63,734 bases of DNA from Planctomycetia bacterium (lineage in GTDB: Bacteria > Planctomycetota > Planctomycetia > Gemmatales > Gemmataceae), in the NCBI GenBank assembly GCA_005772955.1, contig SXID01000006.1:1-63734 (forward strand), in the 5' to 3' direction. The position numbers were made by a program, and so were the translations under genes. Shown piece by piece: positions 53,064 through 59,576 of this stretch (positions within the stretch are counted from its first letter, which is position 1; every line of letters begins with the position of its first letter). Under the pieces are notes generated by a model. It worked only from the letters and a program-made list of their open reading frames with translations. It was not told the DNA's origin and did no database searches.

Positions 53064-54115
53064 GAGGGGTCGATCCGCGTGGGCGGGGGAGAGTACACGT
53101 CCGAGGCGAGGTTGAAGCTCTGAAGACCTACCCCCCCGACCCCCTTACCTTCAGGGCGGGGGGTTGGGGGGGTAGGTTCTTCGCTCAACACCACCGCACC
53201 GAGTGCCGGCCGCAACCGGGTCAGAGCTTCCGCGCCAGTTGCACCCAGCACGAACGCGGCGGTGGACATCGCATCAGCTTCCGCTGCGGTCGGAGCGGTC
53301 ACACTCGCGTTCGCGGTGCCAGATGCCGGCCAGCCAAGACGCGGGTCGAGCAGGTGACCCAGTTTCTGACCGTTATACTCGAAGAACTGAAAGGTGGCAG
53401 CCGAAGTCCCCAGACCCGCGTCGCGGAGCCGCACCACACCGAGCGATCCGTCAGGGTTGGTTGGGTGCTTGAGGCGGATCGGCCAACCGCGTGCGTCGCC
53501 CGGCGGCGTGCCGATCGCGCACGCGCTGCTCCCACCGGCGTGAAGCAGCGCGGAACGCACGCCCCACTGCAATCGCAGCAACGCCGCGGCGCGGTCGAGA
53601 GCGTAGCCCTTTCCCACCGCACCGAGGTTCAGTTCCAGGCCCGCGACGCGAAACTTCACGGCGCGCCGCTCCGCGTTCAGCACGACGTGCCGAAAGCCGG
53701 TGCGGTGCATCGCGGCGATCCGGTCTCGCGGGGTCGGCACACGCGGCTCGCGCCGGTGGAAGCCCCACACCTTCGTGAGCGCGCCGGTCGCGAGGTCGAA
53801 CGCACCGCCAGTTTCCTTCGTCCAGACGGCACATCGAGTAAACAGGTCGAACAGGTGCGGTTCGACTTCAACGAACGCGTCCATTGCAGACGAGTTCACC
53901 CGTGACACCTCCGACTCTTCCCGGTAGATGGTCATCTGGGATTCGAGTTCGTCGATGAGATCGAGCGCGGCTTCTCCGGCCGCGACCGGGTCCGGGTGCG
54001 AGCCGAGAGGGATCGCGATCTCGAACGTGGTCGCCATTGCACGCCGCGACACGCGCACCAGCGAGAACTCGCCCGGCGCTTCCGGCTCATCGGTGAAGAG
54101 GTAATCGAGGAGCAT
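53060..54115 (-). CDS. apbE: ApbE-family FAD:protein FMN transferase
   Basis: 351 aa. ApbE motifs: RAMATTFEIAIPL, EVSRVNSSA, AFDLATGALTKVWGF, GLELNLGAVGKGYALDRAAA, ALLHAGGSSACAIG, DAGLGTSAATFQFF, LGHLLDPRLGWPASG, SVTAPTAAEADAMSTAAFVL. It attaches FMN covalently to target proteins at the outer face of the membrane; no lipobox or signal is seen here. The C-terminal ~35 residues are extra, partly encoded by a palindromic repeat (53122-53182). The ATG at 54115 is chosen since the frame before it lacks resemblance. Confidence 0.9.
   Translation of the reverse strand: MLLDYLFTDEPEAPGEFSLVRVSRRAMATTFEIAIPLGSHPDPVAAGEAALDLIDELESQMTIYREESEVSRVNSSAMDAFVEVEPHLFDLFTRCAVWTKETGGAFDLATGALTKVWGFHRREPRVPTPRDRIAAMHRTGFRHVVLNAERRAVKFRVAGLELNLGAVGKGYALDRAAALLRLQWGVRSALLHAGGSSACAIGTPPGDARGWPIRLKHPTNPDGSLGVVRLRDAGLGTSAATFQFFEYNGQKLGHLLDPRLGWPASGTANASVTAPTAAEADAMSTAAFVLGATGAEALTRLRPALGAVVLSEEPTPPTPRPEGKGVGGVGLQSFNLASDVYSPPPTRIDPS
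53122..53182. repeat. Family B palindrome inside apbE
   Basis: GAAGACCTACCCCCCCGACC... pairs with ...GGGGGGGTAGGTTCTTC. The same arms occur at 58814-58967. Here it lies in frame within the last ~40 codons of apbE and encodes the Pro/Gly-rich PTPPTPRPEGKGVGGVG. Confidence 0.85.
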
Positions 54116-58195: not shown

Positions 58196-58813
58196 ATGCG
58201 CACCGCATCGCATTACAAGCTGTTCGCGCTGGCCGCAATCGTCGTCCTCGTGATCGCGTTCCCGGCGCTCGCGGCCGACCCGCACGCGGGCGAGAAGAAG
58301 GGTGGCCTCGACTTCACCGGCATCAAGCGCTACGACTTGGGCATCTACACGCTCGTCGTGTTCGGGCTGCTGATGTTCATCGTCGGCAAGTTCGCGTGGC
58401 CGAACATCCGCGTGGGCCTGGCCAAGCGCGAAGCGAACATCGGCTCCGCGCTCGCCGACGCACGGCGCGACCGCGCTGATGCCGAGGCGAAACTGACGGA
58501 AGCGAAAAAACAACTCGACGCGGCCGCGGCGCAAGCCAAGGCAATTCTCGACGAGGCACGCAGAGATGCCGACGTGCTGAAAGCTTCCGAGCGCGAAGTG
58601 GGAGTAAAAGAGGCCCAAGCCGAGCGCGAGCGGGTGCGGCGCGACCTTGCCATCGAGCGTGATGCAGTCGGCAAGCAACTCCATCAGCATGTGGTCGAAC
58701 TCGCGACCCTGATCGCGAGCAAGGCCGTCCGGCGACAGGTGACCATCGACACGAAGAGCGAGTTGGTGAACGAGTCCATCGACGAACTGAGAACGAACGC
58801 GAACCGGGCGTAG
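58196..58813 (+). CDS. atpF: F-type ATP synthase subunit b, with signal-peptide-like N-terminus
   Basis: 205 aa. The N-terminus (YKLFALAAIVVLVIAFPALA) resembles a signal peptide with an ALA/AD cleavage site. A second hydrophobic helix (LGIYTLVVFGLLMFIVGKFA) is the normal membrane anchor of b. The remainder is a long charged coiled coil (DARRDRADAEAKLTEAKKQL; QAERERVRRDLAIERDAVGK) forming the peripheral stalk. The extra N-terminal segment lengthens it beyond the usual ~160 residues. A palindrome starts right at its stop codon. Confidence 0.93.
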   Translation: MRTASHYKLFALAAIVVLVIAFPALAADPHAGEKKGGLDFTGIKRYDLGIYTLVVFGLLMFIVGKFAWPNIRVGLAKREANIGSALADARRDRADAEAKLTEAKKQLDAAAAQAKAILDEARRDADVLKASEREVGVKEAQAERERVRRDLAIERDAVGKQLHQHVVELATLIASKAVRRQVTIDTKSELVNESIDELRTNANRA

Positions 58814-58967
58814 GAAGAACCTACCCCCCAACCCCCTCCCGGAAGGGAAGGGGAGCAAAACCATTGCTCGCTGCGCTCGTGGTTCGAGCCTGTTGAGCCG
58901 CGAGCGTAACGAGCCGTTTCTTCCCCCCTTCCCTTCCAGAGAGGGGGTTGGGGGGTAGGTGGTCTTC
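58814..58967. repeat. Family B palindrome filling the atpF-atpH gap
   Basis: Left arm 58814-58853 (CCTACCCCCCAACCCCCTCC then GGAAGGGAAGGGG) and right arm 58925-58967 (CCCCTTCCCTTCC then GGGGGTTGGGGGGTAGGTGG) pair almost fully. The ~70-nt centre contains GAGCCGCGAGCGTAACGAGCC. It spans exactly from after the atpF stop to the base before the atpH ATG, so the atpH Shine-Dalgarno (GGGGGGTAGG) lies inside the stem. Confidence 0.9.
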
Positions 58968-59576
58968 ATGGCGAACGTCGAAACCAAACACGAGACCGTT
59001 CTGGACGCTGGCACGACGCGGTCGCGGCTCGCGCGCGTCTACGCCGAGGCGCTGCTCGCGTCGTCGCTCAAGCAGTCGCCCAACGCGGCCGATGAGGTCG
59101 GCACGGAACTGACCGACTTCGCAAAAGCGGTCGGCGAGAGCCCTGGACTCGGCGTGTTTCTCGGCAGCCCGATCGTCGGCAAGAAGGCGCGGGCCGCGTT
59201 ACTCGCCACCGCACTCGCAGGGCGCGCATCGATTTCGCTTCGTGGATTGATCGCGGTGCTCGCCAAGAACAACCGACTCGACCTGCTTCGCGGCATCGCA
59301 CAAGCCTACCGCGCGCTGATCAACGAACGGTCCGGACGCGTGCCGGTGAAGATCACGACCGCCGTGCCATTCACCGACGAGCAGAAGACCAAACTCACCG
59401 CGAACCTCAAAGACCTGCTCAAACAAGACCCCGTGCTGGACGTTCGGGTCGATCCTGACCTGCTCGGCGGGTTAGTGATTCAGGTGGGCGACTCGGTCGT
59501 CGATACCTCCGTCCGCACCCGGATCCAGTCTCTCCGTACACTCTTGCTCGACAAGGGCGGCAGCCATGGCAACTAA
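58968..59576 (+). CDS. atpH: F-type ATP synthase subunit delta
   Basis: 202 aa, OSCP/delta. [18 protein letters not shown] at the N-terminus, [40 protein letters not shown], and the C-terminal [31 protein letters not shown], as in the family. Slightly longer than the usual ~180. The ATG at 58968 directly follows the palindrome; an ATG at 58959 would add three residues. Overlaps atpA by 11 nt. Confidence 0.93.

Follow-up and report, generated by a model that had tools for sequence, protein, structure and literature searches.

Does a strong stem that covers a core gene's ribosome site point to control recruited for that gene, or can a repeat simply be tolerated there? The question is raised by the window, that is, the whole 63,734-nt stretch of planctomycete DNA analysed (contig C8 of our genome G000, 5.93 Mb in 278 contigs), in which a long palindrome separates atpF from atpH. 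An earlier note on this DNA had described the palindrome as a mobile or copied element, recruited into the operon and possibly tuning subunit stoichiometry.

Layout and fold of the palindrome

The atpF stop codon and the atpH ATG (58968-58970) are 154 nt apart, and an end-to-end inverted repeat coincides with this gap from the base after the stop to the base before the start, just as the earlier note had read it (Table 1). Its main stem comprises 44 pairs with no unpaired base left over at either terminus, and the arms at 58819-58858 and 58921-58960 are 80% complementary without gaps. The fold proposed in the note, of 58780-59010, gave a minimum free energy of -131.5 kcal/mol (z -9.27), and none of 200 shuffled sequences was as stable. 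Folded alone, the gap reached z -12.8, and the opposite strand z -12.0. A 16-nt arm core matched three times in the window, against 0.00 expected from shuffling.

Table 1 Features of the atpF-atpH region and in-frame copies of the palindrome family. Positions refer to the window unless a locus is given.
Feature	Position	Strand	Basis
atpF (b subunit)	58196..58813	+	ORF list; tblastn matches in relatives; stop TAG 58811-58813
Palindromic element, long (paired) form, CCTACC arm type; entire atpF-atpH spacer	58814..58967	.	inverted repeat and fold; family matches in own genome
Left arm; first base adjoins atpF stop	58814..58858	+	inverted repeat, fold
Variable centre with its own smaller hairpin	58859..58920	+	fold; centres vary among copies
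Right arm; last base adjoins atpH ATG	58921..58967	+	inverted repeat, fold
SD-like AGGTGG, within right arm	58957..58962	+	sequence; predicted anti-SD pairing of 20-nt leader -10.6 kcal/mol
atpH (delta subunit)	58968..59576	+	atpH-like protein in 18/19 genus genomes
Short-form copy of the same family, in frame near apbE C-terminus	53122..53182	-	family match, read-through, Pfam scan
In-frame copy locus, chorismate synthase	L163:1841-3043
In-frame copy locus, RsmB	L178:3568-5049
In-frame copy locus, QueG	L200:3132-4250
In-frame copy locus, PSD1-domain protein	L166:2539-5622
In-frame copy locus, amine oxidase	L172:6189-7682

The stem is followed by ATGGCGAAC and not by a T run, so it does not qualify as an intrinsic terminator. 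Since atpH, atpA and atpG also lie downstream in the same direction, a role as a strong transcription terminator appears unlikely from the sequence. A conserved regulatory RNA was rejected as well: an Rfam scan of 58500-59300 gave no family over its gathering cut-off (mir-586 only, 20.6 bits against the 89 needed), and the spacers of relatives are unrelated.

A dispersed family with copies between and inside genes

Judged by its matches, the element at 58814-58967 belongs to a palindromic repeat family with copies dispersed through the genome. Searching G000 at the DNA level gave at least 111 matches (40 of 157 candidates scored), often to both arms of one copy and on both strands. With up to two mismatches, the 16-nt arm core occurs 95 + 90 = 185 times in G000, against 22 + 22 = 44 for the reversed control; with at most one mismatch the counts are 61 + 60 against 6 + 4. 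The arms are of two types (CCTACC and CCTCTCC) that share ends resembling GAAGAACC...GGTTCTTC, and the copies take either a short single form or a longer, head-to-head paired form with a variable centre. In the own-genome loci read, most of them chosen for holding the arm core, arm-core matches (up to three mismatches) formed 113 clusters; 27 were excluded as insufficiently palindromic, leaving 86 palindromic copies. These numbers bear out the description of the element as mobile or copied.

By place, 43 of the 86 copies lie between co-directional genes, 35 inside predicted genes, 4 between divergent and 3 between convergent genes, and 1 at an edge. Because genes were predicted with an in-house codon-usage script, the intragenic counts and the distances to starts are estimates, and some of the weak intragenic matches, such as those at L186 and L208, may not belong to the family. 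Among 50 copies with both arms recognised, arm similarity was 0.891 within copies and 0.889 between copies, a difference reached by 51 of 2000 permutations; this test revealed no clear arm covariation, at most a slight excess. A frequent second repeat within the variable centre was rejected: with up to one mismatch, GCTCGCTGCGCTCG matched 2 times in 397 kb, against 4 for the reversed control. At L023:1477-1540, a perfect palindrome extends beyond the family ends into AGCGGAATACAACC...GGTTGTATTCCGCT, as though flanking sequence had been copied in inverted orientation.

No stop codon interrupts any of the 35 intragenic copies, which would encode peptides such as PLPPTPSPKKGGG...PPPFLGEGVGGRGSS, and nine of ten scanned host proteins match Pfam families. 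In chorismate synthase, a single Pfam match over residues 9-393 spans the 44-residue palindrome insert; the own-genome genes with in-frame copies further include those for RsmB, QueG, a PSD1-domain protein and an amine oxidase. The recurrence of the arms in apbE, already seen in the earlier note, is a 61-nt short form, in frame and C-terminal to the Pfam ApbE domain. The presence of copies in housekeeping genes, in predicted open frames, shows that stems of this kind permit read-through.

Spacers of relatives and the structured background

We compared the atpF-atpH spacer among relatives. DNA matches to the family (E ≤ 1e-5) occur in at least 14 of the 19 genus genomes, our own included, and across 95 genomes of the bacterial family some genera have many arm-core matches and most have few or none. 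All 18 spacers of the genus genomes with atpH were read, and their lengths range from 14 to 253 nt. At the level of the bacterial family, the operon regions leave out 9 of the 55 relatives with an atpH match. G000, G073 and G074 form a trio with almost identical coding flanks (branching support 0.25). The spacer is of the CCTACC type in G000, a 145-nt CCTCTCC type in G073, and an unrelated near-perfect hairpin in G074. The G074 hairpin belongs to a dispersed family of its own (68 + 66 matches in G074, 26 + 28 in G000, controls 0), and the spacers of G065 and G072 carry a third (111 + 115 and 55 + 55 matches, controls 0). By eye, G075 holds a seemingly decayed copy of the focal family, and the G071 spacer is only 14 nt long. 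The atpF-atpH spacer is not conserved, the two closest relatives carrying a different subfamily and an unrelated palindrome, and the genus is one with at least three unrelated abundant palindrome families, as far as their sequences tell. The earlier note had said that its reading would be refuted by unrelated, unstructured spacers with the same expression in relatives; the spacers are indeed unrelated, but many are also structured.

To place this structure against background, we folded gaps of 30 to 450 nt and called a fold strong at z < -3; 16 of 60 atpF-atpH gaps from the bacterial family fell outside this range, leaving 44. Strong folds were found in 17 of these 44 and in 18 of 43 atpA-atpG gaps. 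The atpB-atpE and atpE-atpF gaps (operon loci L099-L158 and the window) are nearly stem-free at 9 of 111, which differs from atpF-atpH with p = 1.7e-5, uncorrected for relatedness. In a 397-kb own-genome control, 64 of 156 co-directional, 25 of 39 convergent and 4 of 40 divergent gaps folded strongly; the control slices (L179-L198) came from contigs already holding the element or other matches, a mild bias, and the length bins of the comparison share boundary values. The atpF-atpH gaps of the genus, with strong folds in 7 of 17, equal the own-genome co-directional rate (p = 1.0). This control undoes the p = 1.7e-5 contrast, and a special enrichment of stems at atpF-atpH was rejected. Because the genus and own-genome rates are equal, there is no sign that a stem is selected for at this gap. 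The focal arm occurs in only 3 of 235 control gaps, so other palindromes make up most of the structured background. In stem strength the atpF-atpH spacer is thus ordinary for this genome, atpA-atpG gaps likewise reach the own-genome rate, and it is the gaps before atpE and atpF that are kept free, which suggests constraint before the c and b subunit genes.

The placement of the focal stem is another matter. In 59 structured co-directional control gaps the median distance is 6 nt from the stop to the stem and 46 nt from the stem to the predicted start; no stem lies within 5 nt of both gap ends and two lie within 10 nt, against a focal margin of zero at both ends. The exact stop-to-start fit is unusual, and chance landing by itself does not explain it. 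Another stop-to-start copy lies at L034:1514-1614 between co-directional predicted genes, where it overlaps a TGA and directly precedes an ATG. Strong stems in the own-genome sample often lie directly after stop codons and are rare in divergent gaps.

Other variable segments, too, differ between species in the palindrome they hold. Of the chorismate synthase loci (aroC, L219-L235; the partial aroC of G074, L236, left out), 17 of 17 were resolved: G000 and G073 hold the focal family in a loop, the G065 loop appears by eye to hold the same family as the G074 atpF-atpH gap, and the other 14 have other loops of 8-42 residues between the same anchors. RsmB (rsmB, L239-L257) was resolved in 18 of 19 genomes, that of G071 being incomplete. 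Its linker holds the focal family in G000, G073 and G064, apparently related or decayed forms of it in G068, G075 and G061-G063, another palindrome in G069 and G072 (reading out of frame in G072), and only a short stretch in G074, G070 and G065. Between G061 and G062, which are 91-93% identical where aligned, whole spacers have been exchanged; one of them contains a focal-family copy in G062, where G061 has a different and shorter sequence. From these alignments, palindromes seem to replace the native variable segment rather than add to it. One could go further and propose that unrelated palindrome families repeatedly occupy the same tolerant slots (the atpF-atpH gap, the chorismate synthase loop, the RsmB linker) and are exchangeable between species, the stop-to-start fit at atpF-atpH then being a coupling switch for the delta subunit. 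We hold this only tentatively and consider it rather doubtful; if true, the exchange of one palindrome for another at a fixed slot would be a new kind of process.

Predicted coupling and the nature of the element

Homology favours 58968 as the start of atpH, five relatives (L139-L143) matching the coding start nearly base for base, over an in-frame GTG at 58959 within the right arm that the codon-usage gene finder chose. The likeliest SD-like string lies 5 nt upstream of this ATG and overlaps the GGGGGGTAGG named in the earlier note. Using the canonical anti-SD string, we found the predicted pairing of the focal atpH leader to be the strongest of 18 (the other 17 range from -1.4 to -6.5 kcal/mol). 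Its computed opening cost, 32.7 kcal/mol, is also the highest of 18 (others 8.3 to 22.4). SD use in the genome appears modest, with pairing at -7 kcal/mol or lower in 23 of 136 ATG genes against 7 of 136 in a control region, and at -10 kcal/mol or better in 2 against 2.

From the opening cost, the stem is predicted to bury the downstream ribosome site, as in a coupling stem of the uncF-uncH type. Since the element spans exactly stop to start and both supplies and buries the SD-like sequence, the model predicts that atpH translation depends on ribosomes finishing atpF. In the fold, the left foot of the stem pairs with the atpH leader; such ribosomes would cover this foot, giving coupling by RNA unfolding. 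With a modelled terminating ribosome covering 6, 9, 12 and 15 nt past the stop, the cost became 36.0, 28.6, 21.4 and 11.8 kcal/mol. The usual footprint of a terminating ribosome past the stop is nearer 9-12 nt, where the cost is still high, so in this model the switch would be convincing only if the stem is opened beyond that static footprint. Pati et al. reportedly proposed in 1992 that mRNA structure couples translation at uncF-uncH of E. coli, uncH being atpH. The two cases share the gene pair and a proposed coupling structure, whereas the sequences are unrelated and the stem here is a dispersed repeat that is not conserved among relatives. An RNA-unfolding model of translational coupling is described in PMC12548453.

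We therefore read the atpF-atpH palindrome, with a probability of roughly 0.68, as a tolerated copy of a dispersed repeat that replaced the native spacer and whose exact fit is predicted to tie atpH translation to atpF. Strong stems of this genome collect after stop codons, the focal family occurs also within genes in open frame, and a family copy may have taken the place of the native spacer. Because that spacer has no conserved sequence, the copy could be tolerated; lying from stop to start, it would supply a good SD-like sequence and, by its folding, bury it. This reading brings together the palindrome, its dispersed family, the unrelated palindromes or none in relatives and the background frequency of stems; from the model we infer the coupling of atpH to atpF.

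The recruitment claimed in the earlier note is not supported here: the relatives' sequences are unrelated, structured gaps occur at the background rate and arms agree within copies hardly better than between copies, and the comparison of relatives does not support recruitment for stoichiometry control. A broader version, in which a stem at atpF-atpH was selected as translational or stoichiometric control, any palindrome would serve and a family copy was recruited, could draw on the recurrence of unrelated stems relative to atpB-atpE plus atpE-atpF and on the E. coli uncH precedent cited in the review PMC12548453. We judge it unlikely, given the equal own-genome background, the equally stem-rich atpA-atpG gaps, the 10 of 17 genus gaps weaker than z < -3 and the 14-nt spacer of G071. 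It is also quite improbable that the stem is an RNA processing or 3'-end protection site dividing the atpBEF from the atpHAG message. The control stems do show a 3'-end pattern, close behind stops and common in convergent but rare in divergent gaps; yet no Rfam family matched, and the stem is not conserved at atpF-atpH.

As to kind, we doubt strongly that a RAYT-type Y1 transposase moves the element as a REP doublet (REPIN). REP and REPIN sequences of the GTAG and CGTC families have been reported in Planctomycetes (PMC3733652). Like them, the family has many palindromic copies in single and paired, head-to-head forms, after gene ends and also inside genes; GGTAGG includes GTAG, and the own genome has eight Y1_Tnp matches, six over cut-off. 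However, the arms here are longer, GTAG lies inside the stem in the CCTACC type and is absent from the CCTCTCC type, leaving no unpaired GTAG or CGTC foot, and the loci read show no RAYT link: in four of the eight Y1_Tnp loci, covered to about 1.5 kb in each direction (at L077 to 0.3 kb in one of them), the arm core is absent. Like MITEs, the copies are short, have inverted ends and, in the loci read, encode nothing of their own, but neither a parent transposon nor a target duplication was found. The own-genome profile search and the loci read identified no mobilising enzyme or parent transposon, no target-site duplication is evident between G061 and G062 or in the aroC and rsmB alignments, though the sequences compared are widely diverged, and no empty site proves insertion.

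By description, the nearest known kind is the Rickettsia palindromic elements (RPEs). PMC10969869 describes these as about 150 bp long, in several families and in frame inside unrelated genes. Size, presence in many copies, multiple families and in-frame positions inside unrelated genes are shared; half of the copies read here are intergenic, the host is a planctomycete, and different families share one slot. The focal copy is itself intergenic, though 35 of the 86 family copies lie inside genes in open frame, as RPEs do. Searches of open-access full texts brought up no description of the family, nor of a palindrome in the atpF-atpH gap of a planctomycete.

These findings indicate that a striking stem over a core gene's ribosome site is not necessarily conserved regulation; where a genome is rich in palindromes, any palindrome that lands in a spacer and survives there can refill it. 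They also suggest that palindromes are frequent in frame within the housekeeping genes of this planctomycete, as is best known from Rickettsia. The spacers of G000, G073, G074 and G071 are natural variants for the effect of the stem on delta-subunit output.
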